This document shows, in pieces, positions 16,378-40,619 of a stretch of DNA of 64,000 nt. Location: contig QQUF01000033.1 of NCBI GenBank assembly GCA_008501735.1, forward strand, positions 1-64,000. The letters run 5' to 3'. The stretch is from Calditrichota bacterium. Lineage in GTDB: Bacteria; CLD3. The translations under genes and the position numbers were made by a program. Under the pieces are notes generated by a model, which ran no database searches, had not been told where the DNA came from, and saw only the letters and a list, made by a program, of their open reading frames with translations. The first letter of the stretch is position 1. Every line of letters begins with the position of its first letter.

Positions 16378-16431
16378 TTGACTTTAGGTGAAAATTCAAT
16401 TCATTTTAAACATTACCTAAGGACTAATAAA

Positions 16432-19400
16432 ATGAAATACTTCAATTCGACACTTAAACTTTCTCTCTTAACCTTACTTTTGGCTTTTTCACCCAAACAG
16501 TCTCAAGCACAAACTGTAACCACAAATCTTGGACTTTATGGCTGCACAGGACAAAATGTAGTTGTTGACGAAAACGGAATCGTTTATTTAGGAGTTAATG
16601 GACCTCAACCTATTTACATTTCCTCAAACAACGGAACTTCTTGGTCTGGTGGACTTCCAACAGATTCTCTAGAAACTCAAGGTGGAAATAACACTGGCTT
16701 GGACGTTTTTGCAGACAGTGTTTACTTTTCAACTGACAATGGAGTTTTTAGAACTGATGACGCAGGTTCCACTTGGAGTCCGATTTTACTTCCTTCAAGT
16801 GGAAAGAGTAACTATCAACAAATTGCAATCAATTCGAATCACGATATATTTATTGGAAACAGGAGCGGAGAAATTTACTACTCTGATGATTTAGGAGTAA
16901 GTTTTACCACTCAATCTGTTACAGGAACTGTTGGAGATGCTGCACAAAATATTCGTTTTGACCCTAGCAACACAACAAATATTTTCTCAGTTTTTGAAGA
17001 CGCGAGCAACAACGGCTTTCTTTACAAATCTACTGACACAGGTTCTTCTTGGGCAAAATTAACTGTTACTGACACAAGTTCAGCTACTGAGATTACTAAC
17101 ATTCACAAATTCGGAGTTCACCCATCTTCTGCAGACACAATTTATGTAGGAACTTTAGACAACAAAGTTTACAAAACTACTGACGCTGGTGTGAATTGGA
17201 AAAACCTTCCTTCCTACCAAGTGAATTATGGTTTACCTAATTTTTTCTTTGAAGATGACACAGTTTATGTTGCAGGTTACAGAAGTTTAGACCACGGAGT
17301 TACTTTTCAAAAACTAAACGGAGACATCGATTCAAAAGGAATTGCTCTAGACCCGAATAATGACAGTTTCTACTACGCATTTGGTGCTTTAGGAATTAAT
17401 GTTAGTACTGATGGTGGTGCAAGTTACAATATTAGTAATACTGGAATTGAAGCTGTTCAGATTTCAAAAATGTCTCAACTTCCTGCACAAAAAGATACTG
17501 TTTGGGTTGCAACAGAAAGCGGTTTAGCTCGTGGAATTAATTTCACAACAACTCCAATATGGACTTTTCCAGTTGATGTAGGCTTTGACGTTAGCGGACA
17601 CAATGCAGTCGAAATAGATTCTTCAAACACAAGCAATGTTTATTCTGCAAACGTAAGAATTCACCAAACGACAAACTTTGGCACAAATTGGAACATTGTT
17701 TACGACGAAGGGCTTTCTTTGGTTGAGCAATACCAATTTTCAGAAATTCTTGCAATTCCTGATACAATTTCAACAATTACTTCACAAATCGTTGTAGCAA
17801 CGGCAAGAAAAACGGACTCTTCTGTAAATGGTTACATTATTCGAAGTGTTGACGGTGGAGCAAATTGGACAAAAGTTTTTACTGGAACTCCAGTTAATAC
17901 AGTCGTGAGAAACCCACACAATGGCAAACTTTACGCTGGAGTTGGTGATTCTGACCAAGACACAGTTCAAGGTGGAATTTATGTAAGTTCTGACGACGGT
18001 GCAACTTGGACACAAATGACAACTTCAAGTGGAGTTGATATTACAACTTACGTTGTTAATCATATTGAATTTCACCCAACTTTTTCTAATTTGATGTTTG
18101 TTTCTTGTGGAGCAAATAATTCTTCTGGTGCGATTTTACGTTCAATGAATTACGGAACAACTTTTACTGATTTATCTCCAACCCCTGCACCTCAATCTAA
18201 AGTTGTAAGTTCAGTGATTGATTTAGACAAACCTTATTTAATCTACTCTTGTTCTGGAAATCAAGTTTTCAAAAGAAATCACTTTCTTGGAGGTTGGTCA
18301 CTTTCTTACACTGGTTTACCGGGTGAGCAAATTAATTTCTTGTTTTACGATGGTCTTGTTATGGGAACTTCAACAGGCTTTTATGGAATCGAAATTCCTG
18401 ATACAACAGTGATTAGTTCAGTTGCAAGTTCAAGTGCAAATTCATCAGCTTACGATATTTCTGCAGGTGGAAGTACAAACATTGAAGACGGTTCAGGAAA
18501 CATCATAGCAACAGTTACAAACTCTGGTGCAAATGCGACTTCTGTCCAAATTGCTTTAAATATTGAAGACCCAATTGTTGATGGAGGATTACCGGACGAA
18601 GGTTGGAATTACGGTTTACGTTGGTGGAATATTAATGTTGTAAATCATACAAGTGGAATTAATGACCCAGTAATTGTTACCTTTTACATTGACGAAACTG
18701 AACTTAATGGTATTGACCCAAATGATTTAAGAGTTTACCACTACGATTCTGGAGATTCGGAATACGACTTACTTTCAGATTATATTGTTGACCTTTCAAA
18801 TTTGCCCAAAATTGCGATTACAGTAGTTGCTGATGAATTTTCACCTTTCATTCCAGGAGCAGGAAACACAGATGAACCTCTAAGCGTTGAGCTGAAATCA
18901 TTTTATGCGAAACAAATTGAACGGAAAGTAAAACTTTATTGGAGAACTGAAACAGAAACAAATAATGTTGGATTTAAAATTTATCGCTCAAATAACAATT
19001 CAGATTTTTCAATGATTGCTGATTACAGAAACTTTGAAGAGTTGACAGGGCAATTGAATTCAACTACAGAAAACTCTTATAGTTTTGTGGATTCAAAAGT
19101 AGAAATTGGAAATGAGTATTCTTACAAAATCTCTGATATTAACTTGGACGCCAAAGAAACTATTCATAGTCAAGTCATAAAGCTTTATTTAGATGAAGAC
19201 TTGGAAAATCCGATTGAAAACTTGCGTTATGAATTAAAACAGAATTTTCCAAACCCTTTTAATCCTTCAACAACAATTGGTTTTTCCATTAAAAACGAAG
19301 GTTTTACGAAACTGTCAATTTTTAACATTCTTGGACAAAGAGTTAAAAATATTTTGGCAACGAAACTAGAAAAAGGAAATTATGAAATTGGTTGGAATGG

Positions 19401-19500
19401 AACCGACGAAAGAGGAAATTTAGTTTCAAACGGAATTTATTACTACAAGTTAGAATCTGGAACTTACTACTCAATTCGAAAAATGATTTTACTAAAGTAA
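16432..19500 (+). CDS. Secreted BNR/sortilin-repeat protein with T9SS C-terminal sorting domain
   Basis: I chose the ATG at 16432 because it directly opens a signal peptide (MKYFNSTLKLSLLTLLLAF, then SQAQ); the frame upstream to 16378 overlaps promoter-like DNA. The mature protein (1,022 residues with signal) contains many BNR-type beta-propeller blades: YYSDDLGVSFT, KSTDTGSSWAKL, KTTDAGVNWKNL, RSVDGGANWTKV, SSDDGATWTQM. A domain ending in VELKSFYAKQIERKVKLYWRT follows, and then a type A sorting signal with NFPNPFNPSTTI, FNILGQRVK, NGIYYYK and a terminal MILLK. It is expected to cross the outer membrane by T9SS and be anchored or released. The ligand is unknown. Confidence 0.88.
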   Translation: MKYFNSTLKLSLLTLLLAFSPKQSQAQTVTTNLGLYGCTGQNVVVDENGIVYLGVNGPQPIYISSNNGTSWSGGLPTDSLETQGGNNTGLDVFADSVYFSTDNGVFRTDDAGSTWSPILLPSSGKSNYQQIAINSNHDIFIGNRSGEIYYSDDLGVSFTTQSVTGTVGDAAQNIRFDPSNTTNIFSVFEDASNNGFLYKSTDTGSSWAKLTVTDTSSATEITNIHKFGVHPSSADTIYVGTLDNKVYKTTDAGVNWKNLPSYQVNYGLPNFFFEDDTVYVAGYRSLDHGVTFQKLNGDIDSKGIALDPNNDSFYYAFGALGINVSTDGGASYNISNTGIEAVQISKMSQLPAQKDTVWVATESGLARGINFTTTPIWTFPVDVGFDVSGHNAVEIDSSNTSNVYSANVRIHQTTNFGTNWNIVYDEGLSLVEQYQFSEILAIPDTISTITSQIVVATARKTDSSVNGYIIRSVDGGANWTKVFTGTPVNTVVRNPHNGKLYAGVGDSDQDTVQGGIYVSSDDGATWTQMTTSSGVDITTYVVNHIEFHPTFSNLMFVSCGANNSSGAILRSMNYGTTFTDLSPTPAPQSKVVSSVIDLDKPYLIYSCSGNQVFKRNHFLGGWSLSYTGLPGEQINFLFYDGLVMGTSTGFYGIEIPDTTVISSVASSSANSSAYDISAGGSTNIEDGSGNIIATVTNSGANATSVQIALNIEDPIVDGGLPDEGWNYGLRWWNINVVNHTSGINDPVIVTFYIDETELNGIDPNDLRVYHYDSGDSEYDLLSDYIVDLSNLPKIAITVVADEFSPFIPGAGNTDEPLSVELKSFYAKQIERKVKLYWRTETETNNVGFKIYRSNNNSDFSMIADYRNFEELTGQLNSTTENSYSFVDSKVEIGNEYSYKISDINLDAKETIHSQVIKLYLDEDLENPIENLRYELKQNFPNPFNPSTTIGFSIKNEGFTKLSIFNILGQRVKNILATKLEKGNYEIGWNGTDERGNLVSNGIYYYKLESGTYYSIRKMILLK

Positions 19501-19918: not shown

Positions 19919-21616
19919 ATGTCTTACCTCGCAACAGCTCGTAAATGGCGACCACAAATTTTTGAAGATTTAATTGCCCAAGAAAGCATAACGCAGACCT
20001 TAAAAAAAGCAATTGAATCAGAAAGGATTGCTCAGGCTTATCTTTTTTCTGGTCCAAGAGGAGTCGGAAAGACAACTGCTGCAAGAATTTTGGCAAAAGC
20101 TGTAAATTGCACAAAATTGCAAAATGGAAACCCTTGTGGTGAATGTGCAAATTGCAAAAATGCATTTACAGGTCGTGGTTTAGATATTTTTGAAATTGAT
20201 GGAGCTTCAAACAACAGTGTTGACGACGTTCGTGAGCTAAGAGAAAGCGTAAAGTTTCCACCGATAAATTCTCATTACAAAGTATTTATCATAGATGAGA
20301 TTCATATGCTTTCAAAATCGGCTTTTAATGCACTTTTGAAAACTTTAGAAGAACCTCCTCCTCATTTGGTTTTCATTTTTGCAACAACTGAACCTCATAA
20401 ATTGCTTCCGACAGTTCTTTCTCGTTGTCAAAGGTATGATTTTAAATCTATTCCAATTGACCGAATCGTAGAAAGACTAAAATTCATTGCCAAAGAAGAA
20501 AATTTCAAAATTGATGAAGGCTCATTAAACTTAATTGCAAAAACTGCAAATGGTGGAATGCGTGATGCAGAAACCATTTTTGACCAAGTTGTTGCTTACT
20601 GCGGAACTGAAATCCATCTTGAAAATGCACAAGTTGCAATCGGTGCTTTTAGCGAAGAGACATTTTTCGAATTAACAAATTCAATCAAAACGAAAGAGAT
20701 TGGAATTGTTTTCCAAATGGTTGAAAAAGTCGTCAAAGGTGGATTCGACTTAGTGGAATTTTCAAAGGGAGTTACTGAGCATTTCAGAAATCTTCTTGTT
20801 TGTAATTCTCTACAATCACCTGATTTGGTTCCTCTTTCTGAAATTTATCGCAAAAAATATTTTGAAGAATCGCAATACTTTTCAACAAAAGATTTAGTTA
20901 GGCTTTTCGACAAATCAACCGAAATGGAAAATGGAATTCGTCATTCAGAACAAAAAAGATTTTTCCTTGAAAATTCGTTAGTTCAAATGGTGAAAATGGA
21001 TAAATCAATTGAAATCGAAAAACTGATTCAGCGAATTCAAGAGCTAAAAAAAAAATTTGAAAACGCAAACTTAAGCGTTTCCCCACCAAAAATTAAAGTT
21101 TTACAACCCCAAGTTAATTATTCAAAAATTGCCTCAAAACCTCAAAGGCAAGAATCTGTTGCCAAATTTGAAGAACCTGAAAAAATTGTTCCCAAAGAAC
21201 TTCCAAAGCAAGTAGAACCTTCTCCAAAATTCCAAAACTCGTTTGAAGCACAAAAAATCTATTCAAATTTTATGGCTTCAATAAAAGAAGAAATGCCTGT
21301 TTACAATTCTGTTCTTAAAAATTGTAGTTTTGAGAACTTTGAAAATAACACACTTTTTATAAAAGTAATTTTGAACAATGAATTTGCAAAGGAAAGGTTA
21401 GATTCAAAAACTAAAGAATTAGAGAAATTTTTAATAAAAATCACTAACCAAGATTTGAGACTCAATTTTTTGCAAATCTGTGATTTTTCAAAGGAGCCAC
21501 AAAAAGAATTAGAGCACTCAGAAATTATTGAGAATGTCAAAAAATCTGACCCAATTGTTGGAGAAGTTCTTAATTTGTTTGGTGGCAAATTAACAAAAAT
21601 TGAAACAACAAAATAA
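19919..21616 (+). CDS. dnaX: DNA polymerase III subunit gamma/tau
   Basis: The clamp-loader AAA+ ATPase of 565 residues starts MSYLATARKWRPQIFEDLI. It has Walker A GPRGVGKTTAAR, a zinc module (NCTKLQNGNPCGECANC), Walker B and sensor text IIDEIHMLSKSAFNALLKTLEEPP, and SRCQRYDF. Domains I-III end near residue 375. A charged, Pro-rich linker follows and then a tau-like C-terminal domain (about 440-565). At codons 376-379 a run of ten A residues could give a shorter gamma form (separate entry). The start has no strong SD but is the first Met of the conserved N-terminus. ybaB lies 32 bp downstream, the common dnaX-ybaB arrangement. Confidence 0.95.
   Translation: MSYLATARKWRPQIFEDLIAQESITQTLKKAIESERIAQAYLFSGPRGVGKTTAARILAKAVNCTKLQNGNPCGECANCKNAFTGRGLDIFEIDGASNNSVDDVRELRESVKFPPINSHYKVFIIDEIHMLSKSAFNALLKTLEEPPPHLVFIFATTEPHKLLPTVLSRCQRYDFKSIPIDRIVERLKFIAKEENFKIDEGSLNLIAKTANGGMRDAETIFDQVVAYCGTEIHLENAQVAIGAFSEETFFELTNSIKTKEIGIVFQMVEKVVKGGFDLVEFSKGVTEHFRNLLVCNSLQSPDLVPLSEIYRKKYFEESQYFSTKDLVRLFDKSTEMENGIRHSEQKRFFLENSLVQMVKMDKSIEIEKLIQRIQELKKKFENANLSVSPPKIKVLQPQVNYSKIASKPQRQESVAKFEEPEKIVPKELPKQVEPSPKFQNSFEAQKIYSNFMASIKEEMPVYNSVLKNCSFENFENNTLFIKVILNNEFAKERLDSKTKELEKFLIKITNQDLRLNFLQICDFSKEPQKELEHSEIIENVKKSDPIVGEVLNLFGGKLTKIETTK
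21046..21055 (+). promoter_or_regulatory. A10 slippery run in dnaX, candidate gamma-producing site
   Basis: Ten consecutive A residues lie in codons CTA AAA AAA AAA TTT of dnaX, right after domain III. One extra A in the transcript, or a -1 slip, leads to ATT TGA: one codon and then stop. Losing one A also reaches a stop within eight codons. Both alternatives give a gamma-like protein of about 380-385 residues, as known for dnaX in Thermus (transcript slippage) and E. coli (frameshifting). Confidence 0.5.
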
Positions 21617-21648
21617 ATTGAAATTTTAAATTAAGAAAAGGTAAAAAA

Positions 21649-21996
21649 ATGGCTAAAGGTAATCAACCTGACTTCGGACAACTACTTAAACAAGCTCAAA
21701 AAATGCAGCAAGAAATGCAAAAAAATCAAGAAAAATTAGCAGACGTTATTGTTGAAGGAATCTCTGGAGGTGGAATGGTTAAAGTAAAAGTAAACGGTAA
21801 ACAAGAGGTTTTGGAAATCAAAATTGACCCAGAAGTTGTCGAAGCTGGCGATGTAGAGTTAGTTGAAGATTTAGTTTTAACAGCAGTGAATCAGGCAATG
21901 CAAAAAGCTAATGGTGAAGCAAATGATTCGATGTCAAAACTCGCTGGAAATTTTATGCCTGGTGGACTTCCTGGTGGAATGAAATTACCATTTTAA
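21649..21996 (+). CDS. ybaB: YbaB/EbfC family nucleoid-associated protein
   Basis: The 115-residue protein has the family layout: helix with LLKQAQKMQQEMQKNQEKLAD, a central sheet VEGISGGGMVKVKVNGKQEVLEIKIDPE, and a C-terminal helix with DLVLTAVNQAMQKANG, ending in a Gly/Met-rich tail. YbaB dimers bind DNA, and the gene is habitually found after dnaX, as here. It has an upstream AAGAAAAGG that may act as ribosome binding site. The AhpD-like selenoprotein gene begins 4 bp after its stop, so dnaX-ybaB-ahpD are probably cotranscribed. Confidence 0.95.
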   Translation: MAKGNQPDFGQLLKQAQKMQQEMQKNQEKLADVIVEGISGGGMVKVKVNGKQEVLEIKIDPEVVEAGDVELVEDLVLTAVNQAMQKANGEANDSMSKLAGNFMPGGLPGGMKLPF

Positions 21997-21999
21997 TTT

Positions 22000-22560
22000 A
22001 TGAGCTGGATAAAAGAAGCAAAATCTCCTAAAGAACATAAAGTTTTAGAAGAAACTTTTGGTGAAATTGACAACTTTGACAAAGTCGCTAACATAATTAG
22101 TGTAGAAACTTTAAACCCAAAAGCACTTTCTCATCACTTGAAATTTTATCGAGAAGTTATGTTTGGAAAAAGTGGTCTTTCGCGGTCTGAACGCGAAATG
22201 GCTGCAGTTGTGGTTTCTAAAGTGAATGGTTGTCATTACTGAATTATTCATCACGGTGAAGTTCTCGCCCAACTTGAAAAAAGTAGAGATTTGCTAGAAA
22301 CAATTGTAAAAGACGAAATTGTAAACTTGAATGACAGACAAAAAGCAATAATTTCTTACACAGAGAAATTAACAAAGACTCCAGCGGATATGCTCCAAGA
22401 AGACCTTCTTCCTTTAAAGTCAGTTGGATTAAATGACAAAGATATTTTGGATTTGGCGTTCGTAGTTTCGTATTTCAATTTTATTAATAGAATTGCCGAC
22501 GGACTTGGTGTTGAGCTAGAAGAATCTTATAAACAATTTGAAAGTTTTTATCAATGTTAG
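22000..22560 (+). CDS. AhpD-like peroxidase-related protein with in-frame UGA (candidate selenoprotein, CxxU)
   Basis: Two frames (22000-22242 and 22291-22560) are in the same phase and are separated only by TGA at 22240-22242. Read through, they form one 186-residue member of the uncharacterised peroxidase-related branch of the AhpD family: LNPKALSHHLKFYREVMFG, LSRSEREMAAVVVS, then VNGCHY-U-IIHHGEVL. The family motif is NGCHYCxxHHG, so the UGA falls exactly at the second Cys of the catalytic CxxC, the residue closest to the essential His. Homology continues undisturbed to VVSYFNFINRIADGLGVELE. A stem-loop suited to a bacterial SECIS follows (22255-22269). AhpD-like selenoproteins have been reported from metagenomes. 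A nonsense mutation or sequencing error is the alternative. Confidence 0.82.
22255..22269 (+). promoter_or_regulatory. Candidate bacterial SECIS stem-loop
   Basis: GGUGA (22255-22259) pairs with UCGCC (22265-22269), including one G-U, around the loop AGUUC, which has G at its second position. The loop starts 17 nt after the UGA, within the spacing seen for bacterial SECIS elements. The stem is short, so this supports but does not prove selenocysteine insertion. Confidence 0.5.
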
Positions 22561-22823
22561 GAATTTTCACAATCATTGGCGTTTCACTTCTAATTTTCTT
22601 TTTATTGGCTTCTTTTATGAAACCAATTCCAAAAGAATTTGACGGAGAAGTTGAAATAAATTTAGTCGAATGTGCAATCTGCCACGACGACTTTGACGAG
22701 AATATTGTTTTTACAAAAAGAATGGGACCTCTAAACAATAACTACCATTTTTGTGAAAGTTGTTCGGAGGAATTTTATCAAGAATACCAAGAGCAAAGAA
22801 TCGAAAGAGTCGCTCAATCATAA
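22554..22823 (+). CDS. Small membrane-anchored protein with two CxxC motifs
   Basis: The 89-residue protein has an N-terminal hydrophobic anchor (LGIFTIIGVSLLIFFLLASF) followed by a soluble part with CAICHDDFDEN and FCESCSEEFY. The two CxxC pairs could bind zinc or form disulfides. Its start overlaps the end of the AhpD-like selenoprotein gene by 7 bp, suggesting coupling and perhaps a redox relationship, which is inference. I do not recognise the family. Confidence 0.65.
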   Translation: MLGIFTIIGVSLLIFFLLASFMKPIPKEFDGEVEINLVECAICHDDFDENIVFTKRMGPLNNNYHFCESCSEEFYQEYQEQRIERVAQS

Positions 22824-22832
22824 ATTTTTTAT

Positions 22833-23483
22833 TTGTCTTTGAAAAAAATTAAAAAAATTTTGATGCTTCTGAACGGTGCAAAACCAAGTAGAAAGTTGTT
22901 TGAAAAATCAACCTACAATTCCCAACTATTAGTTGGAGTTGACGGTGGAACGAATTGGCTTGTTAGAAATAATTTCAAAGTCGATTTGATTCTTGGAGAT
23001 TTGGATTCGGTAACAAATGAAACTTTAAAGAAATCTAAAAACTTCCAAATTATCAAACTCAAAAACCAAAACTTAACTGATTTTGATAAAAGCGTAAGAT
23101 TTTTGATAAATAAATACGAAGTTGGGGAAATTGAGGTTTGGGGAGCAACAGGAAAAAGAATCGACCATTTTTTAGCAAACCTTTCAATTTTGAAAAAACT
23201 TACAAAGAAGGTTAAAATTACTTTTTGCGACGATTATTCAGAATCAATTTTAATTTTTGAAGATTCAATTTTAAAGGGTAAAATTGGTCAACAGATTTCA
23301 TTAATTCCAATTTGTAATGCAAAAGAAGTTACCCTCAAAGGCTTTAAGTTTGAAACGACAAAGATGGATTTAGTTTTTGGACAGAGAGTAAGCAGTTCAA
23401 ATCAATTTGCAAAAACAAAGGCAAAAGTCAGCCTCAAAAAAGGTTGTTTATTTGTTTCAAAAATTCGATTAGGTAAAGAATGA
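22833..23483 (+). CDS. Thiamine pyrophosphokinase
   Basis: The 216-residue enzyme transfers pyrophosphate from ATP to thiamine, giving the cofactor ThDP. Visible motifs are LLNGAKPS, VGVDGGTNWLV, DLILGDLDSV, LTDFDKSVRFL, WGATGKRIDHFLANLSIL and, near the C-terminus, RVSSSNQF. These are the substrate and metal sites of the TPK catalytic and B1-binding domains. The start is TTG (22833; a second TTG lies at 22839), 9 bp after the previous stop. The stop overlaps the next gene in ATGA. Confidence 0.88.
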   Translation: MSLKKIKKILMLLNGAKPSRKLFEKSTYNSQLLVGVDGGTNWLVRNNFKVDLILGDLDSVTNETLKKSKNFQIIKLKNQNLTDFDKSVRFLINKYEVGEIEVWGATGKRIDHFLANLSILKKLTKKVKITFCDDYSESILIFEDSILKGKIGQQISLIPICNAKEVTLKGFKFETTKMDLVFGQRVSSSNQFAKTKAKVSLKKGCLFVSKIRLGKE

Positions 23484-23989
23484 AAAAGTTTCAAGATGGA
23501 TTAGCTTTAATACTTTTTGGTCTTTCAACAGGCGGTTTTTTAATTTCATTCGGACTCTTCGTTTTGACTTACTTTAATTTGTACAACGAAGAATTCACAA
23601 TCACTTTGCACTCTGCTTTACTTATTTTTCTTCCAGCAATTATCCTTTCTTCAGTAAGATTAAAAAATAATTTCCCTGAAAATAAATCTAAAATTTTACT
23701 TTTTTCTTCGTTGCCAAAAATAATCTTGGTAATCGGAGTAATTTTGATTCTGAATATTTTGTGGCACTTTGAAATCATAAATTTCAAAACAATTGCAATC
23801 AATCATTTTCAGAAGTATTTTTTTCACGATATTTATACCAAAAAGACTTTCCCAGTTACTGAAGACACTTATAGAGCTTTTAAAATTCTGACTTTAAGAG
23901 GTTTTACAACAATTTGGATGTGCATTTATTTTTGGACTTCTTCAATTCTTGGAAACGTTTTCTTTGAGGACCAAGAAGACGAAAATTAG
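23480..23989 (+). CDS. Hypothetical four-helix membrane protein
   Basis: The 169-residue protein has four hydrophobic segments (around residues 8-33, 42-58, 72-95 and 140-160). A soluble loop between the third and fourth contains FHDIYTKKTFPVTEDTYRAF. There is no signal peptide and no motif I recognise. The start overlaps the thiamine pyrophosphokinase stop by 4 bp, so it is translated in the same unit; whether it has a link to thiamine is unknown. Confidence 0.6.
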   Translation: MKKFQDGLALILFGLSTGGFLISFGLFVLTYFNLYNEEFTITLHSALLIFLPAIILSSVRLKNNFPENKSKILLFSSLPKIILVIGVILILNILWHFEIINFKTIAINHFQKYFFHDIYTKKTFPVTEDTYRAFKILTLRGFTTIWMCIYFWTSSILGNVFFEDQEDEN

Positions 23990-24002
23990 ATTTTTAAATT
24001 TT

Positions 24003-26339
24003 ATGAAAAAAACTTTTTTGACATTTTCGATTTTCCTTCTCTCTTTAGAACCTTCCTTTGCACAGCTAACTGCAAGTTTTCCAGATTCAAGTTTTACATT
24101 TTTTTCTGAATCTCAAATCACTGAAACAACAATTCCAGTTTGGATTTCAAACGCTGACACTTCGCACCAAGCCATTTCCTTTGACTTCAATTTCTACTAC
24201 AAGCTTGGAGATTTGCGAGTGAAAAATGTCTCAATGATTCCATCGGGTAGTTTCGAATTCTCAGTAAATCCTGACGGGCAAAATGAAAATGAAGTTGTAA
24301 GTGCTGCTGGAGTTTTGAACTCTGAATTAGTCGGCAACATTCATTTGCTTGACGTTACTTTTGAAATTCCAACAAATTTACATTCTGGTTTTGAAAGAAA
24401 AATTGATTGGGTAAACTTTCGTTTTACACCTAAACAACCTCAAATAATTTTAGAAGACGGTGTTCTCACTTTAGCAAAAAATGGAGATTTCGATAAAAGT
24501 AACGAACTTGACTCCACTGACGCGATTTTACTTTTAGACAAACTCACTTCAAATGGTCAATTTTCAGGCTATCATAATTTTGTTTCTGACTTTGATAGAA
24601 ATGGTAAAATTCAAGCTTTCGATTGTGCAAAAATTTTAGAATTTGCTCAGTCTGGAGTATTTACACCTGAGATTTTCTCTTTTACAGTTTCCGATTTTGA
24701 AGGTGAAACTTTTGCTACAACTTTTACACCCTACTCTTTTAAAATCAATTTGAATAATTCAGTTAGTTTAAACGCAGTTTCAGCAAAAGTGCAAATTCCA
24801 AATTCTGATTTTGTATTAGATTCTGTAAAAATTTCAAATGATTTTTCAGGTTTCATTAATTCTATTTCCTCAACAATTGAAAATGAGTTTTGGGAAATAA
24901 ATTTGGGCTTAGCTTCCTCAAACAAAATCGTAAACGGGAATTTAACACTCTGTGAAATTTTCTTGACTCCTATACAATCAAAAAGTTCTACTGAAATCAC
25001 TTTAAGCAATTTGGTCACTAACATAGAACCGGAACAAGCCAAGAAAAATTACCAAATTGAAATTTTAGAAAATTCATTAAACGACACTTTAAAATTATTT
25101 TTTGCAGAAACAAAATTTATTGAGATGGGGGAAGAAGTTAAACTTTCAATTTTCACTCCTAGAATCAGCTCTTTTTGGCAAGTTGAAGATGTAAATTTTG
25201 AAATTCACTTTCCAATATCGAAAATGAAATTAGAATCTTTTTCTAGTAATTATTTTGAAGATATTTCCAAAAGAACTTTTGAAGATTTCATTCAGTTTGT
25301 AACACACGAAACAAATCCAAAAGATTTTTCAGGGAATTTGATGGAATTTACATTTTCACCTATTTCAGAAAATCTTATACCAAAAGACTCAGTAATATTT
25401 CAGGTTCGAGAATTTAGAATTTTATCAGAAGATCCAAACACAGAGTTTCCACATATATTTTTAGAAAATAATTCTTTATTAATTCCTTACAAACTAGGCG
25501 ACTTTAATGGTGATAATATCTCAAATCAAACTGACTTTCAATCATCATTGACAAAACTATCTTTGTTTGAAAAATTCGATGATTTTGAAACTAAAACCAT
25601 TGACTTTGATAATTCTGAGGACATAACTTCTTTTGATTTAAGCCTTCTTCTAAAATTCTTAAACAATCAAGACACAAACTTATCTAAATCATTTGAAGGC
25701 TCTCACAATTTCATTTTTCCTGACTCAACTCTTAAATTTAAGAGTTTTTTATTGAAGCTAAACCTTACAGAAGCTCGAAATATTTTTGGTGGTCGTGGCA
25801 AAATCTCTTGGAAAGAAAGTGATTTTAGACTTCTTAATAGCAATTTTTCAAACTCAGACACCAGTTTGGGATTTGCTTGGAATAATTTTGGCTTTTGTTT
25901 TGCTTCTCAAAACCCGATTCAAAATGAAGTTTTTGAACTTGAACTTTTGCCTTTAAAAGAAGGTGATTTGGAAATTTCAATTAAAGATTTGGAAATCAAT
26001 GGAATTTCACAAAATTCTCAAAATTTGACAATTTTTGTAAAAGAAAATTCCGAAACTTCTGAATTGATTTTTAGTCTTCCTTATCCAAATCCAAATCTTA
26101 ATGGGGTTTTGAAAGTGGATATTTTTGAAGATTTTGATTCTGTAAATTTCGAAATTTTTAATATTCTCGGTCAAAGAGTTCTAAAAGGTGAACAAATTCC
26201 AAATTCTTCAAAAATTGAAATCCCATTGCTAAACTCAAAGAATAAAAGATTAGCAAATGGAGTTTATTTTTTAAATCTTAAAGGTAACTCTCTTACAAAT
26301 TCAAAAGAGAGGAATAGAAGTTTTACAATATTAAAGTAA
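24003..26339 (+). CDS. Secreted cohesin/dockerin-like protein with T9SS sorting domain
   Basis: The ATG at 24003 opens a signal peptide (MKKTFLTFSIFLLSLEPSFAQ); the frame extends to 23949 only by overlapping the previous gene. The 778-residue product alternates cohesin-like beta domains (starting near ETTIPVWISNADTSHQAISFDF) with dockerin-like calcium loops: GDFDKSNELDSTDAILLL, DFDRNGKIQAFDCAKIL, GDFNGDNISNQTDF and DFDNSEDITSFDLSLLL. It ends in a T9SS-type domain with PYPNPNLNG, FNILGQRVLKGE, NGVYFLNLKG and FTILK. The usual NPFNPST is replaced by NPNLNGV, a divergent CTD. It is probably a surface or released protein. Confidence 0.82.
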   Translation: MKKTFLTFSIFLLSLEPSFAQLTASFPDSSFTFFSESQITETTIPVWISNADTSHQAISFDFNFYYKLGDLRVKNVSMIPSGSFEFSVNPDGQNENEVVSAAGVLNSELVGNIHLLDVTFEIPTNLHSGFERKIDWVNFRFTPKQPQIILEDGVLTLAKNGDFDKSNELDSTDAILLLDKLTSNGQFSGYHNFVSDFDRNGKIQAFDCAKILEFAQSGVFTPEIFSFTVSDFEGETFATTFTPYSFKINLNNSVSLNAVSAKVQIPNSDFVLDSVKISNDFSGFINSISSTIENEFWEINLGLASSNKIVNGNLTLCEIFLTPIQSKSSTEITLSNLVTNIEPEQAKKNYQIEILENSLNDTLKLFFAETKFIEMGEEVKLSIFTPRISSFWQVEDVNFEIHFPISKMKLESFSSNYFEDISKRTFEDFIQFVTHETNPKDFSGNLMEFTFSPISENLIPKDSVIFQVREFRILSEDPNTEFPHIFLENNSLLIPYKLGDFNGDNISNQTDFQSSLTKLSLFEKFDDFETKTIDFDNSEDITSFDLSLLLKFLNNQDTNLSKSFEGSHNFIFPDSTLKFKSFLLKLNLTEARNIFGGRGKISWKESDFRLLNSNFSNSDTSLGFAWNNFGFCFASQNPIQNEVFELELLPLKEGDLEISIKDLEINGISQNSQNLTIFVKENSETSELIFSLPYPNPNLNGVLKVDIFEDFDSVNFEIFNILGQRVLKGEQIPNSSKIEIPLLNSKNKRLANGVYFLNLKGNSLTNSKERNRSFTILK

Positions 26340-26351
26340 TGGTTTTTCAAA

Positions 26352-26843
26352 ATGCTTGACGAATATTTTTTCAACAACAACAATCATATGTTTAGCCCAA
26401 TTGCAAAAATTATTGGGGTTTTTATGGTTTGGTTCTTTGTAATTATGGCTTACTACATTCTTTACGAAGAAGCAGGAAGTTTTTCTGAAATTCAAAATTC
26501 ACTACACAACAAAATTTTATCGATTCTTGTTTTTGTTGGCGGAATTTATATGATTGTCCAAAGTTTATTTCACCTCAAAGAGCCAAAAGATGAAGTTACT
26601 ATTTCTGAAAACGACATTGTTTTCATTGAAGATAACAATGAAATAAAAGTGAATTTTAATGATGTAGCCGAAACTAAAATAGATTTAAAAGAACCAACAG
26701 ACAGGAAATTAGCTTGTGAAATTGACCTAAAGACCAAAAGTGGAAGTTCACATAAAATTCAAATAAAAAAATCTGTTCATTACACTGATGAGTATTTTGT
26801 AAAAGGAATTGATTTTTTTAAAAAGAAATTAGAAATTGAGTGA
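26352..26843 (+). CDS. Hypothetical two-helix membrane protein with PH-like soluble tail
   Basis: The 163-residue protein has two membrane helices (PIAKIIGVFMVWFFVIMAYYIL and ILSILVFVGGIYMIVQSL) and a cytoplasmic tail with alternating strands (VTISENDIVFIEDNNEIKVNF, ACEIDLKTKSGSSHKIQI). This organisation resembles bacterial PH-domain membrane proteins, but no specific family is identifiable. It starts 13 bp after the T9SS gene and is followed by a terminator. Confidence 0.6.
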   Translation: MLDEYFFNNNNHMFSPIAKIIGVFMVWFFVIMAYYILYEEAGSFSEIQNSLHNKILSILVFVGGIYMIVQSLFHLKEPKDEVTISENDIVFIEDNNEIKVNFNDVAETKIDLKEPTDRKLACEIDLKTKSGSSHKIQIKKSVHYTDEYFVKGIDFFKKKLEIE

Positions 26844-39799: not shown

Positions 39800-40381
39800 A
39801 TGAAAGCAACACAGATTTTAACCGAAGAACACAAAATTATTCTTAAAGCCCTTGATTGTTTGGAAAAATTCGTTTTGGAGTCAAAAGCCCAAAACGAATT
39901 GGACGCTGCAATTGCTGAAATCTTTTTTGATTTTATTGAAAATTTTGCTGACAAAACTCACCACAGCAAAGAAGAAGATTTGCTTTTTATTGCAATGAAT
40001 AAGTACGGACTTTCAATGGAAATGGGTCCAATTGCAGTAATGCTCGAAGAACACGAACAAGGAAGAAACTGTGTTCTTGGAATGAAAGATGCACTTGAAT
40101 CTTCAAACATCGAAGGCTTTTCAGTAAATGCGACCAATTTTATTGGAATGCTAAGAAATCATATTTACAAAGAAGACAACATTCTTTATCCGATGGCAAA
40201 CAATTCATTTCCTGAATCGGAGTCCACAAAATTGTTGAATGATTTTCACGAAGTTGAAGCACTTAATGGAAACATAAGAATTCGCAATTTTTACAACTTA
40301 GCCAAGAATCTTTGTAAAAAGTATGAAGTTCCATTTTTAGCAGATTCTGAAATTCCAAATTTAAAATCGGAATTTTTATAA
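39800..40381 (+). CDS. Hemerythrin-like (HHE domain) protein
   Basis: The 193-residue helical protein has a metal-ligand set in order: LTEEHKIILKAL, KTHHSKEEDLLF, LEEHEQGR and LRNHIYKEDNILYPM. This is the His/Glu pattern of a four-helix bundle diiron site. Such proteins bind O2 or NO or store iron. It starts 4 bp after bzdQ, so it is produced with an enzyme whose clusters are destroyed by oxygen; a scavenging or sensing role is plausible but inferred. The C-terminal 40 residues extend past the HHE bundle and have no clear motif. Confidence 0.85.
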   Translation: MKATQILTEEHKIILKALDCLEKFVLESKAQNELDAAIAEIFFDFIENFADKTHHSKEEDLLFIAMNKYGLSMEMGPIAVMLEEHEQGRNCVLGMKDALESSNIEGFSVNATNFIGMLRNHIYKEDNILYPMANNSFPESESTKLLNDFHEVEALNGNIRIRNFYNLAKNLCKKYEVPFLADSEIPNLKSEFL

Positions 40382-40382
40382 A

Positions 40383-40619
40383 ATGGTAAGTCCAAACACA
40401 TCAAGTTGCAAACTAGTTGACGATGACCATCTCATTGCAAAAGGTTGGAAAAAGCGTTACATCGCTGACCCAAGAATGGCAAGAGAAGCAAAAGACAATT
40501 ACGAAACTCTTGGCTACGAAGTACACTTTGAGCCATTCGATTCTGAAAATGTTGAAGAAGAATGTCAGGGTTGCAGAATGGTTTTGGAAAAATTCGTTAC
40601 GGTTTACACTCGGAAATAA
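40383..40619 (+). CDS. Small CxxC protein at the end of the benzoyl-CoA cluster
   Basis: The 78-residue soluble protein starts MVSPNTSSCKLVDDDH and contains KGWKKRYIADPRMAREAKDNYETLGYEVHFEPFD and ECQGCRMVLEKFVTVYT. The CQGC pair with Cys9 could bind a metal or act in redox. The middle resembles the ferredoxin-like alpha/beta fragment of proteins that fetch metal or measure amino acids, but I cannot assign it. It starts immediately after the hemerythrin gene (1 bp between), so it belongs to the same transcript. It converges with tamB with only 7 bp between them and no visible terminator. Confidence 0.7.
   Translation: MVSPNTSSCKLVDDDHLIAKGWKKRYIADPRMAREAKDNYETLGYEVHFEPFDSENVEEECQGCRMVLEKFVTVYTRK

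Follow-up and report, generated by a model that had tools for sequence, protein, structure and literature searches.

The window, the whole stretch of 64,000 nucleotides that we analysed, is positions 1 to 64000 of contig C52 (C52:1-64000) in a genome of 4.14 Mb and 59 contigs (100% complete, 0.67% contamination). It contains an AhpD-like gene in which the start codon, an in-frame TGA and the terminal TAG all stand in one frame (Table 1). Apart from that TGA, the 186-codon frame shows no other stop and no frameshift. The gene lies in a head-to-tail series formed by dnaX, ybaB, the AhpD-like gene itself and a small ORF (19919-22823), with small gaps or an overlap between them, and ybaB and the AhpD-like gene are probably co-transcribed. 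In many bacteria ybaB is followed by recR, whose usual place is taken here by the AhpD-like gene. The 89-aa product of the small downstream ORF has a hydrophobic segment at its N-terminus, contains two CxxC pairs (CAIC and CESC) and gave no Pfam match above the cut-off. The ATG of this ORF overlaps the stop codon of the AhpD-like gene, and its translation may therefore depend on read-through by selenocysteine (Sec). Two large secreted-type proteins are encoded further out, one at 16378-19500 with a PNPFNPSTTI-type C-terminal domain, the other at 23949-26339 with dockerin-like repeats and a comparable tail that has diverged further.

Table 1. Features of the AhpD-like locus (positions in the window).
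Feature	Position	Strand	Remarks
YbaB/EbfC nucleoid-associated protein gene, upstream neighbour	21649..21996	+	ends 3 nt before the ATG of the AhpD-like gene
Putative AhpD-like selenoprotein gene (TIGR01926/COG2128)	22000..22560	+	186 aa including Sec81; ATG 22000, TAG 22558-22560
Glu66 codon (GAA)	22195..22197	+	putative proton-relay Glu by spacing (E+12 = C)
Cys78 codon (TGT)	22231..22233	+	predicted partner of Sec81 in CxxU; invariant across the family
Predicted Sec81 codon (in-frame UGA)	22240..22242	+	second residue of the catalytic C78-H-Y-U81
Candidate bSECIS including lower helix	22247..22278	+	lower helix UUCA (22247-22250)/UGAA (22275-22278)
His85 codon (CAC)	22252..22254	+	putative proton-relay His (Sec+4)
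Candidate bSECIS upper stem-loop	22255..22269	+	GGUGA-AGUUC-UCGCC; pairs 22255-22259/22265-22269
Small downstream ORF with CxxC pairs	22554..22823	+	ATG overlaps the end of the putative selenoprotein gene

Translated with UGA as Sec, the gene gives a protein with the active site NGCHYU-IIHHG (NGCHYUIIHHGEV with the next two residues). This read-through protein matches TIGR01926 ('peroxidase-related enzyme') over residues 16-172 (E 6e-43; 146.7 bits against a cut-off of 81.8) and the Pfam CMD profile PF02627 (E 1.3e-9). The original prediction, made from the DNA letters alone, had placed the stop on the second Cys of an NGCHYC-xx-HHG motif, with family homology on both sides, and had warned that an ORF caller would split the gene and lose its catalytic site. 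All of this was borne out. The standard ORF list gives two pieces, 22000-22242 (80 aa) and 22291-22560 (89 aa), and the active site is lost. Column 81 of the alignment is Cys or Sec in 118 of 118 relatives, a uniformity that is partly by construction because the relatives were collected with motifs requiring one of these residues there. On average the window protein is 35% identical to these relatives before the UGA and 37% identical after it, and nearly all strongly conserved columns of the family are kept. The presence of a UGA at the catalytic CxxC of an AhpD-like gene is thereby confirmed. A DNA pattern for the TGA-containing active site has a single match in the window; 100 shuffled versions had none. 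The search for UGA-spanning coding frames within the 64-kb window revealed no second convincing selenoprotein; the sole other frame listed, at 40294-40596 on the minus strand, looks like a chance open frame.

The genome encodes a full machinery for Sec. We found a tRNA-Sec at C16:2174-2268 (61 bits against a 47-bit cut-off), to which ARAGORN assigned the anticodon TCA (UCA), together with selB (C32:240017-241891, E 6.4e-111), selD (C46:187289-188221, E 1.0e-109) and selA (C52:154251-155588, E 1.8e-147), the latter on the window's own contig and 90 kb past the window. Besides the AhpD-like gene, at least four genes of the genome have a UGA at a classical Sec position: selD itself (CAGUAS within VKCAGUASKL), a SelW-like gene (C12:42699, CVVU), a formate dehydrogenase alpha gene (C41:121877, CAATUHAPTVAGL) and a Prx gene (C32:91912, ADTPGUT). 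Two AhpC-TSA matches, at C20:23847 and C32:117724, contain one TGA each. Among eight other genomes of the same small phylum, selA scored over the cut-off in three and was partial in two more.

We then asked how the Sec form is distributed. Scanning public genomes with a degenerate DNA pattern in which TGA was fixed, which selects for UGA and thus shows the spread of the Sec form and not its frequency, gave at least 116 loci. Of the 116 matches listed, 113 belong to the family and carry their UGA at this same codon, and the other three (L113, L127 and L136) are chance matches whose surrounding frame is not of the family. The listed UGA loci come from Gemmatimonadota, Acidobacteriota, Planctomycetota, Chloroflexota, Bacillota, Fidelibacterota/Marinimicrobia, Calditrichota, Actinomycetota, Cloacimonadota, Latescibacterota, Bacteroidota and others. 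When a sample of 290 genomes was searched irrespective of that codon, 22 of the 47 TIGR01926 matches had exactly one internal TGA. Some genomes carry more than one TIGR01926 paralogue with an internal UGA (G056 on C2/C22/C23, G119 and G256), and one (G073, C8:42003) has a more distant form with the active site GCRYU-xxAH.

The window protein is a divergent member of this set. It shares 44-46% identity with the most similar Sec forms and about 44% with the nearest Cys form, so that the best identity to any relative found is about 46%. A protein-seeded scan of genome contigs found no close relatives. None of the eight other genomes examined from the phylum has a TIGR01926 match over the cut-off, which leaves the window gene as the only such AhpD-like case among nine. 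In the maximum-likelihood tree the protein sits on a long branch (1.09) and in no supported group, and for this reason we claim no donor for a transfer of the gene.

Just 3' of the UGA, the original prediction had noticed a short stem-loop with a G near the start of its loop, 17 nt downstream, and the hairpin at 22255-22269 agrees with that description. A 5-bp stem closes a 5-nt apical loop (AGUUC, 22260-22264) that starts 17 nt after the UGA and has G at its second position. Published rules for bSECIS elements give a loop of 3-9 nt, an upper stem of 4-16 bp, a G at loop position 1 or 2, a distance of 16-37 nt between UGA and loop, and an energy limit of -7.5 kcal/mol (PMC13188914). The window hairpin obeys those on loop size, stem length, loop G and spacing, and its fold energy of -7.0 kcal/mol over 37-40 nt (37 nt for 22243-22279) is just weaker than the limit. 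A 64-nt stretch folds at -8.6 kcal/mol, but takes in a second hairpin, and the z-scores of the window fold reach only -1.2 to -1.7. Of 2,000 synonymous recodings that followed local codon usage, only 1.05% yielded a model hairpin this stable, and 2% of synonymous recodings of the segment reached an equal fold energy. The Rfam model SECIS_1 (RF00031) gave no match in the genome, nor in controls including E. coli, and is uninformative here.

The homologues provide a broader comparison. A hairpin that fits the model is present in each of the 111 Sec homologues tested, and the loop lies 16-20 nt after the UGA in 109 of them, versus two of nine Cys homologues. Synonymous shuffles based on the family's own short-segment codon usage, a poor control, were as stable in a median of 20% of cases; when each gene's remaining codons were used instead, the median was 8.5%. 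The excess of stability across the family is thus moderate, and the stronger argument is the position-specific match. In the commonest register of the family, the wobble position of a Gly codon, a purine in 106 of 111 Sec sequences, pairs with the U of the Leu codon that comes next. This position is a U in the window gene, whose hairpin uses another pairing register that some relatives seem to share, and the apical loop contains GG in most of the family versus AGUUC in the window. We take the window hairpin as a candidate SECIS element. More tentatively, the shifted register and AGUUC loop could represent a lineage-specific bSECIS, in a gene acquired or kept alone within a small Sec-decoding phylum otherwise lacking the family; we consider this possible, if rather doubtful.

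The residues around the UGA resemble the proton relay of AhpD proteins, which comprises Glu118/Cys130/His132/Cys133/His137 in M. tuberculosis AhpD and Glu36/Cys48/Tyr50/Cys51/His55 in PA0269 (PMC3141380). E66, C78, Y80, U81 and H85 of the window protein match the relay spacing E-(11)-C-X-Y-C/U-XXX-H, and the same columns (with C or U at 81) are invariant in the family alignment. An AlphaFold2 model with Cys standing in for Sec (pLDDT 92.3) has the AhpD-like all-helical fold. Its Foldseek matches include 6k40, 3c1l and 2oyo at TM 0.8-0.87, with the D. radiodurans AhpD (6k40) at 0.87, as well as 2pfx and 2prr.

The best explanation for these results is a single gene for an AhpD-like, antioxidant-type selenoprotein, whose UGA is decoded as Sec under the direction of the downstream stem-loop, to which we give a probability of about 0.96. 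The original prediction of a candidate selenoprotein thus stands. It had named selA, selB, selC (tRNA-Sec) and selD as the genes to look for, and all four are present; it had regarded scattered frame damage downstream as a sign to the contrary, and we saw none in the gene or its relatives; and the family is a known one.

The alternatives are all improbable, to different degrees. A Cys-type AhpD-like gene might have suffered a nonsense mutation from TGC or TGT to TGA and now be decaying, and the isolation of the gene in its phylum sample would suit a single stop as the first step of decay. Yet the codon affected is the very one that is UGA in nearly all listed pattern loci, the downstream half is conserved as well as the upstream half, a second lesion is absent, and the gene has a SECIS-like hairpin at the right distance in a genome with full Sec machinery and at least four other selenoprotein genes; we judge decay very unlikely. 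In bacteria, Sec insertion has to compete with termination. The UGA might accordingly act mostly as a stop that yields an 80-aa N-terminal protein, with read-through serving regulation according to selenium supply, an arrangement into which possible translational coupling of the overlapping downstream ORF would also fit. The 80-aa product, however, would lack the catalytic second residue and half of the fold, and shows no sign of use, which makes a gene with two products about as improbable as decay. An error of one base in sequencing or assembly, hiding a true TGC or TGT, is less probable still: it would have had to strike by chance the family's one Sec codon in a genome with Sec machinery, and relatives in many phyla carry UGA at the same codon; the genome copy has the same base, though it comes from the same assembly. 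Reassignment or read-through of UGA throughout the genome (for example as Trp, or by a near-cognate suppressor) could account for several genes with in-frame UGA, but is the least credible option, as these UGAs lie at known Sec positions, tRNA-Sec, selA, selB and selD are present, and UGA terminates nearby reading frames as usual, at 23481-23483 (thiamin pyrophosphokinase gene) and 26841-26843 (the end of an ORF), which indicates a standard code with Sec insertion and no general recoding.

If the gene is a selenoprotein gene, as is almost certain, SelB and Sec-tRNA(UCA) would decode the UGA at 22240-22242, directed by the stem-loop whose loop begins 17 nt away, and Sec would be inserted there to give one AhpD-like (COG2128/TIGR01926) thiol/selenol oxidoreductase. 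Sec81 would then stand where the AhpD CxxC has its second Cys (Cys133 in M. tuberculosis AhpD), and with Cys78, Glu66, Tyr80 and His85 would rebuild the AhpD proton-relay site. Catalysis would proceed via a selenol/selenenylsulfide cycle. From this rebuilt site, we infer that the protein most likely uses its selenol to reduce (alkyl) hydroperoxides or serves as a redox adaptor for peroxiredoxin, presumably together with a physiological partner.

This reading corrects the gene model, since standard callers give an 80-aa and an 89-aa piece, neither with a complete catalytic site. It also provides a well-supported selenoproteome (AhpD-like, SelD, SelW-like, Prx and formate dehydrogenase alpha) for a genome of a sparsely sampled phylum. 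With UGA at one codon and the hairpin loop 16-20 nt after it, the more than 100 homologues form a clean study set, suited to the analysis of how a SECIS is maintained inside a fixed protein motif (HHGxxLR).

AhpD-like selenoproteins were already known from metagenomic surveys, as the original prediction had stated: 27 COG2128 AhpD-like CxxU selenoproteins were described in the Sargasso Sea in 2005 (PMC1088965) and 299 sequences in the GOS data in 2008 as 'AhpD-like 1', COG2128 (PMC2398784), and a 2026 review has the entry 'AhpD-like protein, TIGR01926, CxxU' (PMC13188914). The window protein shares with them TIGR01926/COG2128 membership, a CxxU with Sec second and a predicted bSECIS just after the UGA; it differs in its divergence (at most about 46% identity), its AT-rich genome, and a SECIS candidate that is slightly weak and in another pairing register. 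The Cys-type peroxidase-related structures 2pfx, 3c1l, 6k40, 2oyo and 2prr share the fold of the window protein (TM 0.8-0.87) and the arrangement of its active site, but have Cys in place of Sec and no need of a SECIS. M. tuberculosis AhpD and P. aeruginosa PA0269 share the Glu-(11)-Cys-X-(His/Tyr)-Cys-XXX-His relay, but belong to other subfamilies (AhpD differs also in topology) and use Cys, not Sec. The AhpD_rel_CFYUT selenoprotein (NF041238) and the distant AhpD selenoprotein NF041047 also have CxxU in an AhpD core, but are different families: the window protein scores 50 bits against a cut-off of 175 for the former, and the latter is not among the profile matches listed for it. The window gene is thus a divergent new member of the already catalogued CxxU AhpD-like family, and not a conceptually new one.
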